From positions 124,001-188,000 of the forward strand of contig NZ_FZOQ01000001.1 in the NCBI RefSeq assembly GCF_900188175.1: a DNA stretch of 64,000 nt, given 5' to 3'. A program made the position numbers and the translations under genes. Positions 34,259 through 40,188 of this stretch are shown piece after piece; positions within the stretch are counted from its first letter, which is position 1; each line of letters opens with the position of its first letter. The notes under the pieces were generated by a model. The model was not told the DNA's origin and did not search any database. It was given only the letters and a program-made list of their open reading frames with translations. Source of the DNA: Pontibacter ummariensis (GTDB lineage Bacteria; Bacteroidota; Bacteroidia; Cytophagales; Hymenobacteraceae).

Positions 34259-36259
34259 TTAGTCTCTGCCCATGTTACGGTAACGGTCGCTGCGACGGCT
34301 TTCGTAGCGGTCACTATCGCGGTCTGAGCCATAGCTGCTGCGGCCTTGGTTCTGGTCGCCGTATCCGCCGCGGTAGTTGTCACGGGAGTTGGAGCCTCTG
34401 TTATCGCTGTAATAAGAGGTGCTGCTGTCCATGGATCCGTAACGGCTTTGGTCTCCGCCGTATCCGCCCTGGTTATAGCCACCTTCTCCGTAACCACTAT
34501 GTCCATAACGGCTGGAGAAATCGTCTCCTCCACGGTTCGAGCTACCGGAGCCATAGCCGTAGCCACCACTCATACCCCGTCCGCGGTTGCTGTCTCCATA
34601 ACCGCCGCCGCCTCTGCTGGAAGAACCATAGTTTGAGCCGCCGCCATATCCCTGGCCATAATCGCTACCTTGCGAGCCGTATCTGGCTGAGCGGTCATCG
34701 TCATAAGACCCTCCCCTAGAACCGTAGCTGCTCTGGCTGCCATAGCCTCCTTGCATAGAGCTCTGCGAGTCATATCCTCTGGAGCCACGGTCGTCGCGGT
34801 CGTATCCGCTCATGCCTCTGGAAGAGCCATAGCCCATGGAGCCAAAACGATCGTTATCGCCATAGCCGCCCTGCATATTGGACCTGGATGATCCTGAGCC
34901 GCTCATGCTGGCGCCGTATCCTTGCTGGCCACTCATACCGGAGCCATATCCTCCCTGGCCTTGGTTCCCATAGTTAGAGCCATAGTTGCCCTGGCCATAG
35001 CCCCCTTGGTTGCTAGAGCCGTAGCCTCCCTGGCCGTAACCACCCTGCGACCCAAAGCTTTGAGAGGCAGAGCCATAGTTGCCGCCTCTGTTGCCTTCGC
35101 CCTGGTTGCTGTAGCGTCCCATGCCGCCCTGGCCAGACATTCTGCCATAGTCGTAGTTGCTGTTGCCTTGGTTACTGTTGCCATAGCTGCCATAAGAGGA
35201 ACCGGTGGTGCCTCTGGACCCCTGGTTGCTACTGCTACCGTAGCCTCCCTGGCCGGCCATTCCGCCGCCGTAGGTGCCGTAGTTTCCGGTGTCACCATAA
35301 TTGCCTTGCGATGAGCCCCCCAGCATCCCGAAGCCGCCGGATGCACCGCCAGAGATGTTGCCTCCGGTTACATCGCCGGCTCTGTTCTGCCAGCCGCCCT
35401 GCATGCCGCTTCCTTGTGTGCCATAGTCCTGGCCCATGTATCGGGCGCGGTTGCCTTCCATGCCGCCCTGGTTACCGAAGTTATAGCCGCCGCGGGAGCC
35501 GAATTGCTCCTGATCGCCGAAGTTGTTGCCGGTGTTGCTTCCTCCAAAGCTGCCATAAGAAGAGCCACTGTTAGATCGGCCACCGCCACTTTGTTGGCCG
35601 CTGTTCATGCCAGATCCGTAGCCTCCCTGGTTGCCATAGTTGCCCTGCATGCCACTAGTACCTTGGTTGTAACCGCCTTGCATGCCGTAGCCCCGGTTCA
35701 TACCACCTCCCTGGTTAGAGGATCCGTAGTCGCCCTGATAGCCGTAACCGCTCTGGCCGCCGTAGTTGCTGTTCTGAGAACCGTATCCGTAACCTCCCTG
35801 GCTACCGTACCCGCTTTGGTTGCCATAGCTGCCCCCTTGGTTAGAGCCCTGGTAGTTCTGAGAGTTGCCGCTTGTCATAGAGCCATAGTTTCCGTAGTCA
35901 GAAAGCTGGTCTCTGTTAGATCTGCTTGAATCTGAATCGGAACTGTTGTCGTCTTTGCTAGCTGATGTTGACGAACCTGAGCTTGCAGTTGTCGTTGTGC
36001 CTGTCGTCTTGCCCTCTTTTTTAGAAGAGCTGTCTGACTTTGCTTTTGTTGTTGTCGATTTTGATGTAGAGGCAGAGGTCTTGTTGTCCTTGTCATCTTT
36101 AGACGATGAGCCCGTAGATGAAGATGAGCCCGTAGATGAAGCGGTTGGCATACTTGAGCTACTGCTACTGTTGGTTGTGTCCTTAGACGATGCGCTAGAC
36201 GAGCTGCCCGAATTATTGGATGATTGGTTCGAGCCTTGATCTTTCTCTGTGTCTTTCAT
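34259..36259 (-). CDS. Giant low-complexity G/S/Y/N/Q-rich protein with RGG motifs
   Basis: The protein of 666 residues has no folded domain that I can see. Residues 1-117 are a Ser/Thr/Lys/Asp-rich tract (runs such as SSSSSS). Residues about 118-666 are Gly/Ser/Tyr/Asn/Gln/Met-rich, built of GYG, SYG, NYG, NQGGYG units, with RGGY, RGGN, RGGS, RGGG and RGGD motifs; the tail (RDSDRYESRRSDRYRNMGRD) is Arg-rich. There is no Cys and almost no Trp or aliphatic residue. I chose ATG 36259 because AAGGAG lies 8 bases upstream; an ATG at 36316 would add 19 unlike residues. No signal peptide or T9SS tail. The style matches prion-like RNA-binding proteins (FUS, EWS). Divergent from cspA. Confidence 0.8.
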   Translation of the reverse strand: MKDTEKDQGSNQSSNNSGSSSSASSKDTTNSSSSSSMPTASSTGSSSSTGSSSKDDKDNKTSASTSKSTTTKAKSDSSSKKEGKTTGTTTTASSGSSTSASKDDNSSDSDSSRSNRDQLSDYGNYGSMTSGNSQNYQGSNQGGSYGNQSGYGSQGGYGYGSQNSNYGGQSGYGYQGDYGSSNQGGGMNRGYGMQGGYNQGTSGMQGNYGNQGGYGSGMNSGQQSGGGRSNSGSSYGSFGGSNTGNNFGDQEQFGSRGGYNFGNQGGMEGNRARYMGQDYGTQGSGMQGGWQNRAGDVTGGNISGGASGGFGMLGGSSQGNYGDTGNYGTYGGGMAGQGGYGSSSNQGSRGTTGSSYGSYGNSNQGNSNYDYGRMSGQGGMGRYSNQGEGNRGGNYGSASQSFGSQGGYGQGGYGSSNQGGYGQGNYGSNYGNQGQGGYGSGMSGQQGYGASMSGSGSSRSNMQGGYGDNDRFGSMGYGSSRGMSGYDRDDRGSRGYDSQSSMQGGYGSQSSYGSRGGSYDDDRSARYGSQGSDYGQGYGGGSNYGSSSRGGGGYGDSNRGRGMSGGYGYGSGSSNRGGDDFSSRYGHSGYGEGGYNQGGYGGDQSRYGSMDSSTSYYSDNRGSNSRDNYRGGYGDQNQGRSSYGSDRDSDRYESRRSDRYRNMGRD

Positions 36260-36265
36260 AGTTCG

Positions 36266-36273
36266 ATCTCCTT
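36266..36273 (-). promoter_or_regulatory. Ribosome binding site deciding start of the low-complexity gene
   Basis: On the minus strand AAGGAG lies about 8 bases before the ATG at 36259 (caaggagatcgaactATG). Clear Shine-Dalgarno sites are few in this window, so it stands out. Confidence 0.65.
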
Positions 36274-36316
36274 GAGTATATAGTTTAAAATTAAGTTTGT
36301 TGCAGACCCCACACAT

Positions 36317-36670
36317 GAGCAGCCACAGGGGTAGCAGTGTGGCTTTTGATTTTGTTTCTTTTATACCAAAAACATAGTAACAGAGCTGTTTTTTTGGTGT
36401 AACAGAACGCTTTAGCTATACGAACCCTGTGGCTCAGGGTTATTTGCGGGTGGTAGTCTTGGGGTAAACTTTTGTATTTACAGGGAGAGCAACAAACTTG
36501 CTGTAAAGCTGGCCGCAAGACCTTGTTTACAGAGGATAACCTACCCTTTAAAGGAGGGAGGAGAAGTGGCTAAGTGCCTGATGATGTTTTTGTTAATTAT
36601 TTTAGTTGACATTGCAACTATATTAAAAGTATTGTTTACCTTTGGCGCATTATTATTTAAATTCATTATA
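36317..36670. other. Divergent promoter region, low-complexity gene / cspA
   Basis: About 410 bases separate the two divergent start codons (36260-36670). The part near cspA is AT-rich and has TACCTTTG; the part near the other gene has TAATTTTA as a weak -7-like box. Two short poly-T runs occur. No further ORF is convincing. Confidence 0.45.
36637..36644 (+). promoter_or_regulatory. -7 box of cspA
   Basis: TACCTTTG is a full match to TAnnTTTG. TTGACATTG lies about 23-30 bases upstream. The predicted start near 36651 gives an AT-rich leader of about 20 bases before the ATG at 36671. Confidence 0.55.
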
Positions 36671-36862
36671 ATGAAAACAGGTAAAGTAAAGTTCTTCAAC
36701 GTTTCTAAGGGTTTCGGTTTCATTGTTGCCGATGATACTAACCAAGATATCTTCGTACACCAGACCGGCCTTGTACACGAAATTCGTGAGAATGACCGTG
36801 TATCTTTCGAAGTGAAGGACGGCAAAAAAGGATTGAATGCAATTAACGTAGAGAAAATCTAA
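36671..36862 (+). CDS. cspA: Cold shock protein, CspA family
   Basis: A 63-residue single cold-shock domain: MKTGKVKFFNVSKGFGFIVA with the RNP1 motif (KGFGFI) and RNP2-like DIFVHQTGL. Such proteins bind single-stranded RNA and DNA and keep mRNA unfolded in the cold. A longer frame reaches back to 36566 but its extra residues are hydrophobic nonsense; the ATG at 36671 gives the normal length. A terminator follows at once. Confidence 0.95.
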   Translation: MKTGKVKFFNVSKGFGFIVADDTNQDIFVHQTGLVHEIRENDRVSFEVKDGKKGLNAINVEKI

Positions 36863-36984: not shown

Positions 36985-38076
36985 CTACCCTTCCAGTTCC
37001 TGCTTTTTGCTGTTCCGTTCTTCTCCCTTTTCCAGGCCTTCCTGTATCAGCTCATCTGCTTCCTTCAGGTCTTCGATGTCAGCTACCGGGTGTTCTTGTT
37101 CGTGTTCGTGCTGTGGCTCATAGTTTAGACTGATGGAGATAGGGAAGTGGTCGGAGCCAAACTTAGAGAGGCGCCTTAAACTAAGTAACCTAAAGTCGGG
37201 GGCATAGAAAACGTGGTCTAGCGGGTAACGGAAAAGCGGAATGAGAGCGCTGTACGTGTTAAAGAACCCCCTGCCCACGCGAGGGTCTATCATACAGCTT
37301 ATTTCCTTAAACAGCTTTGTCGTTCTTGACCAGGCAACATCATTTAAGTCGCCGGCCACCACACAGGAGTAGGGGACTTTCTTTACTTCTTTGGCGATCA
37401 GCAGCAGCTCGGCTTCACGTGTATCTGTATCCAGCATCACGCGTGGTGGTTGCGGGTGAACTGTAAAGAGACCAAATTTCTTTCCGCTCGGTAACTCTAC
37501 CACTGTGAAGAAAGAGGGAATATCATCTTCTACCAGAAACCTGATTTCGCTTTGGTGTAGTTTAAACTTGCTCCACAGCAGCATGCCATAAGTGTTCTCC
37601 AGAGGTTTTTTGATAGCATAAGGATAGCGCTTATCTAACTCAGTGCGGACGCTCTCATGCCATGCCTCGTTTGGCTCGTTCATCAGCAACAAATCGGGAT
37701 CCTCCTGCAGTGCCAGCTCCAGAAACTTCTGGTGCTTTTTGTTCGACATCCGCACATTGGCAATCATTAAAGTAAAAGCGTTTTGGGGTTGCTTCTGCTC
37801 GGAACGAAGCGCCTCCGGTTTAACCAGGGGCGTGAAGTGGAAAATATACCTGACCTCGTTAAGTACAGCCAGGCCCCAAATGATTATCATAGTTGCCTCA
37901 GAGATGCCTTTTATACCATATAAGGCAATATAAACCGCAAGGGTAACGGTGAGCAGGATGGCGACGTGCAGACGCGGGAAATCCAGCACCCTGACCCACC
38001 ACTGTGTGGTGGGAATAAGTGGAAGGAATGAGAAAAGGGTGAGAATGAACCCCAATATGACAAGGGCTGTTTCCAT
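36985..38076 (-). CDS. Endonuclease/exonuclease/phosphatase family membrane protein
   Basis: The 363-residue protein starts with three membrane helices (about residues 1-95) and then has an EEP domain: FTLMIANVRMSNKKHQKFLE with the metal-site Asn, DLLLMNEPNEAW, VVAGDLNDVAWS and the closing FGSDHFPI with catalytic Asp-His. Such membrane-bound EEP proteins may act as phosphodiesterases on lipids or nucleic acids; the substrate is unknown. The C-terminus is a Glu/Lys-rich tail. It is monocistronic after the gldH terminator. Confidence 0.88.
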   Translation of the reverse strand: METALVILGFILTLFSFLPLIPTTQWWVRVLDFPRLHVAILLTVTLAVYIALYGIKGISEATMIIIWGLAVLNEVRYIFHFTPLVKPEALRSEQKQPQNAFTLMIANVRMSNKKHQKFLELALQEDPDLLLMNEPNEAWHESVRTELDKRYPYAIKKPLENTYGMLLWSKFKLHQSEIRFLVEDDIPSFFTVVELPSGKKFGLFTVHPQPPRVMLDTDTREAELLLIAKEVKKVPYSCVVAGDLNDVAWSRTTKLFKEISCMIDPRVGRGFFNTYSALIPLFRYPLDHVFYAPDFRLLSLRRLSKFGSDHFPISISLNYEPQHEHEQEHPVADIEDLKEADELIQEGLEKGEERNSKKQELEG

Positions 38077-38198
38077 GGCTTGTTGGGTGCAGTTTTGAAA
38101 GTTTACTTGTGCTATTGAATACTAGAGCAAGGGCCCTTTTGTTGCCGCTTTTGTAGAACCTGAACATAGAAGAGGGCAGGTATCTACCGCTTTATAAA

Positions 38199-38244
38199 AT
38201 ACAAATCCCCTGCCACCTAGTTGTAGGCAGCAGGGGATTTGTAT
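38199..38244 (-). terminator. Terminator after ricT-gldH
   Basis: ATACAAATCCCCTG (38199-38212) pairs perfectly over 14 bp with CAGGGGATTTGTAT (38231-38244). The minus-strand exit is TTTTATAAA. It is 15 bases beyond the gldH stop. Confidence 0.75.
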
Positions 38245-38258
38245 GCTTTAAGTGCTTC

Positions 38259-38741
38259 TTATTGCTTACCGGACTCTTTCGCAACCCGGGCGCCAACAGC
38301 CAGCACATTCGGTAGTGGATCACGGCGCATGTACTGCGTGAGCATCAGCTTGTATTGACCTGCTTTTTTAAACGTTACATCATTTAAGGCTAATACCTGC
38401 AGGTCATAGATGTCACTTGAGCCATCCCCCAGGGGCTTCCCTGTTTTAGAGTCCATCAACAGCAACTCGTGCAACTGTGACGACAGCAAGATGCTGTCCG
38501 GCCCCAATAGTTGGTGGCGCACGTACAGGTTGTAGTAATCGTACTGCAGGTTATAGCGCACATTAAAATAGACATCATATACCTGCGTGGTGTCCTGTAT
38601 TTCAAACTCAAAAGCGGGCACATTATCAATTGCCCAGTTGCCTTCCGGCAAGTCCACGTTCTGTTCATAAACGCGGGCGGGGTCGCAGCTTGCGAGCAGC
38701 AGTAAAAAGGCTGCTGCCCACATGCCTAAAAACTTATGCAT
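38259..38741 (-). CDS. gldH: Gliding motility lipoprotein GldH
   Basis: GldH is an outer-periplasmic lipoprotein needed for gliding motility in Flavobacterium, where gliding and type IX secretion are linked. The 160-residue product has the signal MHKFLGMWAAAFLLLLASC with lipobox LASC, and the conserved blocks NWAIDNVPAFEFEIQDT and YNLYVRHQLLGPD. It overlaps ricT by 8 bases, a gene order I recall from other Bacteroidota. It supports a T9SS or gliding apparatus elsewhere in the genome. Confidence 0.92.
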   Translation of the reverse strand: MHKFLGMWAAAFLLLLASCDPARVYEQNVDLPEGNWAIDNVPAFEFEIQDTTQVYDVYFNVRYNLQYDYYNLYVRHQLLGPDSILLSSQLHELLLMDSKTGKPLGDGSSDIYDLQVLALNDVTFKKAGQYKLMLTQYMRRDPLPNVLAVGARVAKESGKQ

Positions 38742-40188
38742 CAGTGCGTGGTGGTTTAGGTTGATCGGTTTTCTTGCCTTTAAAGGGTTTGCGTGAACGG
38801 TGCTTTTTAGGCTGTTGCCCTTGCGCCCCGTCCTGGCTTACGGCCTGTGCCTCTGCTTTGGCTGGGCGGTTATCTCTCCCTTGCCTGCGTTCGCGCGGTT
38901 CTTTGCCTTCACGGGCCTCTTTTCCTTCGCCTCCACGGTTTTTGTTCCTTGGTGGCCGCTGCTTAGGAGGCCTTTGCTCCCGCTGTTCGCCCTGTGGCTC
39001 CTGTTTCTCTCTTTTGTCCTGAGCTACCTCGGCTTTTGCCTGCGCAGGTTGTGCGCCAGGTGCGGCCGGCTTTTTCTTTTTCTTCTTTTTCTTCTTTTTG
39101 CTCTTGAACTTATCGTCCAGTCGCTCCAGGCTGCCTTCTACCTGCGCTACAAACTCGTTCTGCTTTGGCTCTTCCTGTGGCTCCAGTAATAGCGCCTCTA
39201 CCGTTACGCCCTTGGCGTTCTGGTCCAGGATCTCCTGCACGCGCTCTACCGGCACCGGGTACCAGTTATTGTCGCCCTTGTAGCCAAACCACATCATGCG
39301 CTTAAAGATGTCTGTTTTCTGCAGAATGGCATCTCCCTGCGCTGTTTGCAGCGGGCGGTTCACCGTCGGGATATCCTTCAGGGCCACCATGTACGTTTCC
39401 AGTTCGTAGTTGAGGCAGCACTTCAGGCGCCCGCACTGGCCGGAGAGCTTACTTGGGTTAAGCGACAGGTTCTGGTAACGCGCCGCAGTGGTGGACACGC
39501 TTTTAAAATCGGTGAGCCAGGTAGAACAGCAAAGTTCCCGGCCACAGGAGCCAATGCCACCTAAACGGCCGGCCTCGTGGCGCAGGCTGATCTGGCGCAT
39601 CTCGATCCGCACCTTAAACTCCTCTGCCAGTTTTTTGATCAGGTCCCGGAAGTCTACCCGGTCATCGGCTGAATAATAAAACGTAGCCTTCGACTTGTCT
39701 GCCTGATACTCTACGTCCGACAGTTTCATCTTCAGGCGCAGCATCTGGATAATCTCCCTGCTGCGGTACATGGTGCTGGCCTCCAGGTCGCGTACCTCCT
39801 GGAACTTCTCCATGTCGCGCTCATTGGCTATGCGGTAGATACTGCGGATCTCCTCGTTGTTGTCTACCTTCTTTTTGAGCATCTGCAGGCGCACTAGCTC
39901 ACCCTTTAACGACACAAACCCGATGTGGTGCCCGTTCGGCACGTCTACCACCACGGCATCGCCAGTGGTCAGGTCTAACCTGTTTGCATTGCGGAAGAAG
40001 TCCTTGCGGCCTCCTTTAAATCTAACCTCTACTATATCGAACTCCTCAAACGACGTTGGCAACTCCATGTCGCTGAGCCAGTCAAACACGTTTAAGCGGT
40101 TGCAGCCTCCTGTGCTGCATCCGCCGTTGCTTTTGCAGCCGCTTACTCCCGTGCTGCATCCGCCACTAGAACATGAATTACATCCCAC
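38734..40188 (-). CDS. ricT: RicT/PSP1 family protein with Cys-rich head and poly-Lys tail
   Basis: The 484-residue protein belongs to the PSP1 family. In Bacillus RicT (YaaT) acts in a complex with Fe-S clusters that affects RNase Y and mRNA maturation. The head has about seven Cys in 30 residues (MGCNSCSSGGCSTGVSGCKS). The core (about 30-310) includes GRELCCSTWL and SGQCGRLKCCLNYE. The last about 120 residues are a disordered basic tail with a run of ten Lys and RPPKQRPPRNKNRGG, unusual for the family but frequent in Bacteroidota. It is the first gene of the ricT-gldH unit. Confidence 0.88.
   Translation of the reverse strand: MGCNSCSSGGCSTGVSGCKSNGGCSTGGCNRLNVFDWLSDMELPTSFEEFDIVEVRFKGGRKDFFRNANRLDLTTGDAVVVDVPNGHHIGFVSLKGELVRLQMLKKKVDNNEEIRSIYRIANERDMEKFQEVRDLEASTMYRSREIIQMLRLKMKLSDVEYQADKSKATFYYSADDRVDFRDLIKKLAEEFKVRIEMRQISLRHEAGRLGGIGSCGRELCCSTWLTDFKSVSTTAARYQNLSLNPSKLSGQCGRLKCCLNYELETYMVALKDIPTVNRPLQTAQGDAILQKTDIFKRMMWFGYKGDNNWYPVPVERVQEILDQNAKGVTVEALLLEPQEEPKQNEFVAQVEGSLERLDDKFKSKKKKKKKKKKPAAPGAQPAQAKAEVAQDKREKQEPQGEQREQRPPKQRPPRNKNRGGEGKEAREGKEPRERRQGRDNRPAKAEAQAVSQDGAQGQQPKKHRSRKPFKGKKTDQPKPPRTDA

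Follow-up and report, generated by a model that had tools for sequence, protein, structure and literature searches.

We analyzed a 64,000-nucleotide stretch of the Pontibacter ummariensis genome (RefSeq GCF_900188175.1, contig NZ_FZOQ01000001.1, forward-strand positions 124,001 to 188,000), hereafter the window. A preliminary description of a low-complexity protein had given the span 34259 to 36862. The gene itself fills the part up to 36259, on the minus strand, and the remainder of that span includes a cold-shock gene (csp) (Table 1). An alternative upstream ATG at 36316 would give a longer reading of the same frame; the ATG at 36259 is preceded by AAGGAG 8 nt upstream, and an MK[DE]xEK start recurs in relatives.

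Table 1. Positions of the disordered-protein gene, its parts and its neighbors in the window
Feature	Position	Strand	Basis or remark
Low-complexity disordered-protein gene, 666 aa	34259..36259, stop codon included	-	ORF, homologs, dN/dS
S/T/K/D-rich head, residues 1-115	35915..36259	-	partial conservation in Pontibacter of the MK[DE]xEK[ND]Q start and of a KAK...KK stretch
Pontibacter conserved island, residues ~255-300	35360..35497	-	consensus GGYNYGNQGGMEGNR..QD..GMQGGYQDREGD
Conserved island with family core motif, residues ~470-535	34655..34852	-	
Family-wide core motif	34694..34723	-	window copy GSRGGSYDDD
C-terminal island, residues ~593-630	34370..34483	-	GGDQSRYGSMDSSTSYYSDN and GSSSREN
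Shine-Dalgarno AAGGAG before the start codon of the disordered-protein gene	36268..36273	-	
Putative ECF-type promoter of the disordered-protein gene	36416..36444	-	AATAACC-N15-CGTATAG (= AAC-N16-CGTATAG)
TAnnTTTG (-7-like) element of csp	36637..36644	+	34 nt ahead of the csp ATG
Stand-alone cold-shock domain protein (Csp), 63 aa, divergent neighbor	36671..36862	+	PF00313, 4.3e-19
Conserved flank: Exo_endo_phos (EEP) gene, then GldH-like lipoprotein and PSP1-like genes	36985..40188	-	last two names presumed

The 666-residue product is of low complexity, as first described. It consists of 26.9% Gly, 21.3% Ser and 9.3% Tyr, lacks Cys, and continues after its head with about 550 residues of G/S/Y/Q/N units. 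AlphaFold2 predicts disorder, with a mean pLDDT of 38.1 and 652 of 666 residues below 50; neither of two family proteins modeled has a confident fold, and almost no helix is predicted. The protein matches no Pfam family at an E value of 1 and no NCBIfam family, which agrees with the reported absence of an RNA-recognition domain, and a search of PDB chains returned nothing at an E value of 0.01. Seven orthologs also lack a match to any curated model, the single NCBIfam row (E value 0.64) scoring 8.7 bits where the cut-off is 964. Sigma-B regulons include GsiB/YciG-type KGG proteins; the disordered protein has no KGG-type Pfam match.

Shuffling separates the features of the body that exceed chance from those that do not. 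The counts of GYG (22), GGYG (13), NYG (9) and NQGG (6) were reached in none of 500 shuffles; of the unit types originally named, only SYG (6 copies) is not above chance, its count being reached by 0.12 of 500 shuffles. The RGG motifs, which had been highlighted as well, number six against a shuffle mean of 3.5 and fall within expectation (0.106 of 500 shuffles). When the Tyr-bearing segment was shuffled 500 times, no shuffle spaced its aromatic residues as evenly as the real sequence does. Ten of ten orthologs from six genera, all picked among the Tyr-rich forms, show the same regularity (nine beat all 500 shuffles and one 99.6% of them), so that evenly spaced Tyr "stickers" are a genuine property of these forms.

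Substitution patterns indicate that the 666-aa frame is real coding DNA under purifying selection. The 12 closest Pontibacter pairs give mean dN/dS values of 0.06 for the body (the GYG region) and 0.22 for the head. In the same pairs it is 0.07 in the body outside the islands and 0.04 in the islands, the latter value being partly circular because the islands were picked for their conservation. The window protein contains no signal-peptide-like segment (best 15-residue Kyte-Doolittle mean, 0.64), and no export tail was seen by eye at the C-termini. The protein is probably cytosolic, in line with the initial expectation.

Orthologs and gene order in Hymenobacteraceae

Homolog searches were positive in all 36 other genomes searched within the genus and in none of 22 genomes from other families of the order. 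A full-length profile found nothing in 25 genomes outside the genus, and a profile of the C-terminus hit 50 of 200 family genomes, all of them Pontibacter, and none of the 150 others. The reading of a Pontibacter-only orphan was dropped when locus order revealed orthologs in other genera. Among 16 loci fetched, L135-L139 were set aside, as they hold only an EEP paralog of 37 to 40% identity and no other gene of the block; their genera (g25 and g26) are covered by later loci. In 11 of 11 conserved loci (g23, g24 and g27), the same slot is occupied by a low-complexity ORF of 533 to 717 aa. A further 12 g26 loci and one g25 locus were chosen as matches to a profile of the core motif (A4). We read 63 orthologs in full: 37 from Pontibacter (including the window), two from g23, five from g24, one from g25, 12 from g26 and six from g27. 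A disordered protein invisible to full-length search can thus be traced through its locus, promoter and short motif.

All 63 orthologs contain at least 12.5% Gly, have GRAVY values from -2.05 to -1.09, and lack Cys. Each carries the motif GGSY[NGSD][DE] exactly once, the window copy being slightly deviant. Profile A4 matched 47 of 390 genomes of the order, every match lying inside Hymenobacteraceae, and a second profile (A5) gave a single match in each of 183 of 200 family genomes, covering all six genera and leaving 17 without a match. Among 395 genomes of the phylum, A5 matched four members of the family; two borderline matches outside it, at an E value of ~0.03, were treated as chance. No convincing homolog was found beyond Hymenobacteraceae in the 390 order and 395 phylum genomes, and a plasmid search produced no match to the disordered protein. 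In sum, an as yet unnamed disordered protein is encoded once per genome almost throughout the family, with its promoter and motif conserved; our search of open-licence literature found nothing describing this family or its regulon. Hymenobacteraceae are known from dry and from irradiated habitats.

Length and composition differ among the genera. Ten of the 12 g26 orthologs are Tyr-poor (3.3 to 4.2%) and only 295 to 443 aa long, and five of these ten lack any RGG; the other two are Tyr-rich and 534 to 535 aa long. The g26 and g25 forms can be aligned along conserved islands. Because the Tyr-poor g26 forms keep both the motif and the locus, these are the constant elements of the family and the Tyr-rich body is variable, and a FUS-like composition cannot be upheld as a conserved property.

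The preliminary description had also pointed to a stand-alone cold-shock domain gene across about 410 bases, and the two start codons (ATG 36259 and csp ATG 36671) are indeed separated by a 411-bp divergent gap. The pair is conserved in part. A divergent, adjacent csp is present in 56 of 63 loci, comprising 37/37 Pontibacter, 2/2 g23, 5/5 g24 and 12/12 g26 loci, but is missing beside the gene in all seven loci of g25 (one) and g27 (six), where the disordered-protein gene and its promoter are kept. Since the same fetched stretch contains GldH in 63/63 loci and PSP1 in 62/63, linkage to csp is not special. In Pontibacter, the csp, EEP, GldH-like and PSP1-like genes flank the gene in 36/36 genomes, and on the opposite side one genome lacks the NmrA/helicase genes within the fetched stretch and another lacks NmrA. 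In 17 genomes (16 genera) from other families of the order, we saw neither an LCD-type (low-complexity) ORF nor a Csp around psp1, five of these regions being shortened by contig ends and GldH being detected in 8 of the 17. The disordered-protein gene and csp may have arrived together.

Promoter company and translation signal

The pattern AAC-N15-18-CGTAT[AG] occurs within 420 nt upstream of 63/63 orthologs. Markov shuffles averaged 0.65 and never exceeded 5, and the opposite strand gave 1/63; the 63 orthologs are related rather than independent events, and all six genera agree. In the window, the outer edge of the element lies 185 nt ahead of the ATG at 36259. ECF sigma promoters characteristically contain AAC and CGT, and we regard the element as a putative ECF-type promoter. 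It resembles those of the EcfG general-stress regulons of alphaproteobacteria, whose promoter motif is GGAAC-N17-20-GTT (PMC6599016), in its AAC...CGT type and in the DUF892, SDR and Hsp20-type genes found under it, but differs in having CGTAT[AG] as its -10. The available text of PMC6599016 makes no mention of DUF892 or yciF.

We searched six genomes with the exact pattern and obtained 35 matches, compared with 42 for a reversed control. There is no global excess, and it is the placement of the promoter, not its number, that is informative. One match per genome lies ahead of the disordered-protein gene in 6/6 genomes. Nine lie ahead of DUF892-type genes, again in 6/6 genomes, with the gene start 31 to 55 nt past the -10; seven of these genes are Pfam-confirmed and two (G073) were assigned by resemblance. 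Two more precede SDR genes (one Pfam-tested), which we take to resemble general stress protein 39, and one each precedes an Hsp20, a SpoIIAA-like, a DUF4142 and a DUF4136 gene, while 14 of the 35 have no assigned stress gene. The disordered-protein gene thus shares an AAC...CGT promoter with general-stress genes, as expected of a member of an ECF-type general stress regulon. In the reverse direction, the promoter is present within 300 nt upstream of 10 of 14 DUF892/YciF genes from nine genomes and absent from four, a tenth genome having no such gene; for DUF892 genes in genomes not used for pattern discovery, it is present in 3/7. By eye, no ECF sigma gene is found among the seven promoter matches of the window's genome. 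The idea that Tyr-poor forms had also lost the promoter was considered and rejected: the six shortest g26 forms carry CGTATG, not CGTATA.

In three genera, the cold-shock gene appears to be under a promoter of a different class. TAnnTTTG, a housekeeping-type element in Bacteroidetes, is no more than 80 nt away from 39 of the 54 csp genes found by pattern (32/37 in Pontibacter, 2/2 in g23, 5/5 in g24 and 0/10 in g26), and in Pontibacter it is located ~200 bp away from the ECF-type element. The sequences therefore suggest distinct classes for the two genes in Pontibacter, g23 and g24, and the divergent promoter that they were proposed to share is not apparent there. Across the family, conservation extends to a stress-type promoter, to disorder and to a short motif; it does not extend to a FUS grammar with a Csp partner.

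Judged from the bases ahead of the start codon, a Shine-Dalgarno signal is kept in Pontibacter and two other genera, which is unusual for the phylum. AGGAG stands just ahead of the start in 35/37 Pontibacter, 2/2 g23 and 6/6 g27 genes, in 0/18 genes of g24, g25 and g26 combined, and in 2/50 window ORFs. With an assumed 16S tail, the AAGGAG of the window gene would pair at -8.3 kcal/mol, and predicted pairing of -7 kcal/mol or stronger occurs in 44/45 genes of Pontibacter, g23 and g27 compared with 1/45 control window ORFs, whose starts are first-ATG guesses. According to PMC9976891, ribosomes of Bacteroidia fail at Shine-Dalgarno recognition, loss of bS21 increases translation of reporters with strong Shine-Dalgarno sequences, and in Flavobacterium johnsoniae an obvious one is found at rpsU alone. 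The same source gives a pairing below -13 kcal/mol for rpsU, stronger than that of the disordered-protein gene, and rpsU criteria that only ~20% of Cytophagales satisfy, mainly Cyclobacteriaceae. Both facts weaken the lead that translation of the disordered protein is gated in a similar way. We consider it doubtful that Hymenobacteraceae evolved a condensing protein of their own that is induced by stress and controlled at two levels: transcription, through a general-stress sigma factor, and translation, through a Shine-Dalgarno sequence in Pontibacter, g23 and g27 that bS21-less ribosomes could read. If so, stress-altered ribosomes would favor its synthesis.

Possible functions of the disordered protein

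We give a probability of about one-half to the view that the product is a disordered cytosolic protein of the general stress response, confined to Hymenobacteraceae, that acts as a protectant and self-assembles reversibly in its Tyr-rich forms. Stress would activate an ECF-type sigma factor on AAC-N16-CGTATAG, and this promoter would also drive the DUF892/YciF genes and, in part of the genomes, genes for SDR oxidoreductases and Hsp20-type proteins. Once induced and abundant, the hydrophilic chain may shield the cytoplasm during drying, osmotic or cold stress. The even Tyr of the Tyr-rich forms, present in most genera, would support reversible self-association into a condensate or gel, a property that cannot be universal, since 10 of the 12 g26 orthologs are Tyr-poor. 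The single GGSY[NGSD][DE], kept in every member read, could serve as a docking or nucleation site. A desiccation or stress role was among the alternatives initially offered, and the occurrence of the same promoter at DUF892/YciF, SDR and Hsp20-type genes now favors it.

The initial proposal, that the functions of an RNA-granule protein are split between the two divergent genes, with the low-complexity chain condensing and the Csp binding RNA in a cold-induced ribonucleoprotein granule, now seems improbable. It draws on the adjacency of csp in 56 of 63 loci, the joint absence of both genes around psp1 in the 17 genomes of other families, the even spacing of Tyr in the Tyr-rich forms, and the g26 loci, in which the csp side is kept in 12/12 while NmrA is found in two and a 280-aa gene in five. 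Against this, the gene and its promoter remain at all seven g25 and g27 loci without an adjacent csp (a statement about the locus only), the Pontibacter promoters differ in class, RGG is no commoner than chance, and GldH and PSP1 are linked as strongly as csp. The data do not support a partnership with Csp as the core function. That the gene is low-complexity sequence drifting without a fixed function is scarcely credible: the differences in length and composition between genera would fit drift, but a mean dN/dS of 0.06, a motif and promoter present in 63/63, and the same locus neighbors in 62 to 63 of 63 do not.

A possible though rather unlikely explanation makes protection secondary and casts the protein as a scaffold or regulator, a spacer that presents GGSY[NGSD][DE] and genus-specific islands to a partner such as a chaperone, the ribosome or an anti-sigma circuit. 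The presence of a single core motif in each of the 63 proteins, its retention in forms of 295 to 443 aa with far less Tyr, and the low dN/dS of the islands (0.04, with the circularity noted above) are consistent with this role; the selection seen on the rest of the body (mean dN/dS, 0.07) is more than a simple spacer would require. Structural proteins of the envelope or matrix, silk- or curli-like, have a comparable Gly/Ser/Tyr-rich composition, and export of the disordered protein by an uncharacterized route would place it among them. We regard this as very improbable given the lack of a hydrophobic N-terminal segment in the window protein, the charged MK[DE]xEK start in Pontibacter, and C-termini that show no export tail by eye.

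A disordered stress protectant has parallels among the hydrophilins, LEA-type proteins and CAHS, with which the protein shares predicted disorder, richness in Gly, GRAVY below -1, absence of Cys and apparent stress control. It differs from them in its even Tyr, its little predicted helix, and the absence of a Pfam match in the window protein and seven orthologs. According to PMC10949331, CAHS D forms gels reversibly, with protection against drying, and its gelation involves helical bundling. We applied the hydrophilin criteria given in PMC4190154 (Gly above 6%, GRAVY below -1, mean hydrophilicity above 1). All 63 orthologs exceed 6% Gly (minimum, 12.5%) and all 63 have GRAVY below -1, whereas none of the 63 has a mean hydrophilicity above 1 (0.21 in the window protein) on the Hopp-Woods scale, from which the scale of that paper may differ. 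Hydrophilins are also induced by water stress and protective; for the disordered protein, the putative promoter is what points to such induction. As the third value fails on this scale, we do not file the protein as a hydrophilin, although it may work like one.

Likeness to FUS and EWS is confined to general features, namely the Gly/Ser/Gln/Tyr composition and the even Tyr. The criterion for FET proteins used here, evenly spaced Tyr in a G/S/Q-rich chain, describes 10/10 orthologs tested, all Tyr-rich. The absence of an RRM, the unenriched RGG, the lack of a PDB-chain match at an E value of 0.01 and the Tyr-poor orthologs set the protein apart; we treat the resemblance as an analogy and not as membership in the FUS family. 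The natural occurrence of Tyr-rich and Tyr-poor orthologs provides a bacterial test of even Tyr in stress protection.

Translation and promoter-proximal conservation of the LCD gene

The Shine-Dalgarno sequence upstream of the gene for the Tyr-rich low-complexity protein (LCD gene) is kept in Pontibacter and in two other Hymenobacteraceae genera, g23 and g27. The sequence AAAAAGGAGGTGAA lies upstream of an Hsp20-type gene in genome G030 (L292), and both elements are uncommon for the phylum. The two could possibly report bS21-poor ribosomes.

The bases directly after the -10 element of the LCD promoter, with the common form CTAAAACGTTCTGTTACAC in Pontibacter, are also well conserved at the same place in most loci of this genus. 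This conservation exceeds the need of a start site and may reflect a leader element or the binding site of a regulator.

Coordinates of features
Feature	Location	Strand
Shine-Dalgarno of LCD gene	window 36268-36273	
Stretch after LCD promoter -10	window 36397-36415	-
100-aa protein gene	L269:2527-2829	
Repeat proteins	L272:25-973	

Shortened orthologs in g26

Six LCD orthologs in the genus g26 (L209, L211, L213, L214, L215, and L217) are reduced forms of 295-317 aa in which acidic residues make up 11-16%, yet all retain the core motif, the promoter (in its CGTATG form), and the csp neighbor. They represent a natural test of the role of the Tyr-rich body.

Other genes near promoter-pattern matches

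Three pattern matches (L275, L284, and L294), found in two g27 genomes, lie 232-327 nt upstream of genes that are related to each other: their products have the stretch PFGS[ST]W.YLD[DN]G in common, close to the N-terminus. Another exact match in the window's genome has repeat proteins, which we take to resemble curlin, encoded at most 1.5 kb upstream. Downstream of a promoter-bearing SDR gene, a 100-aa hydrophilic protein without a Pfam match is encoded, which may be a further disordered stress protein.
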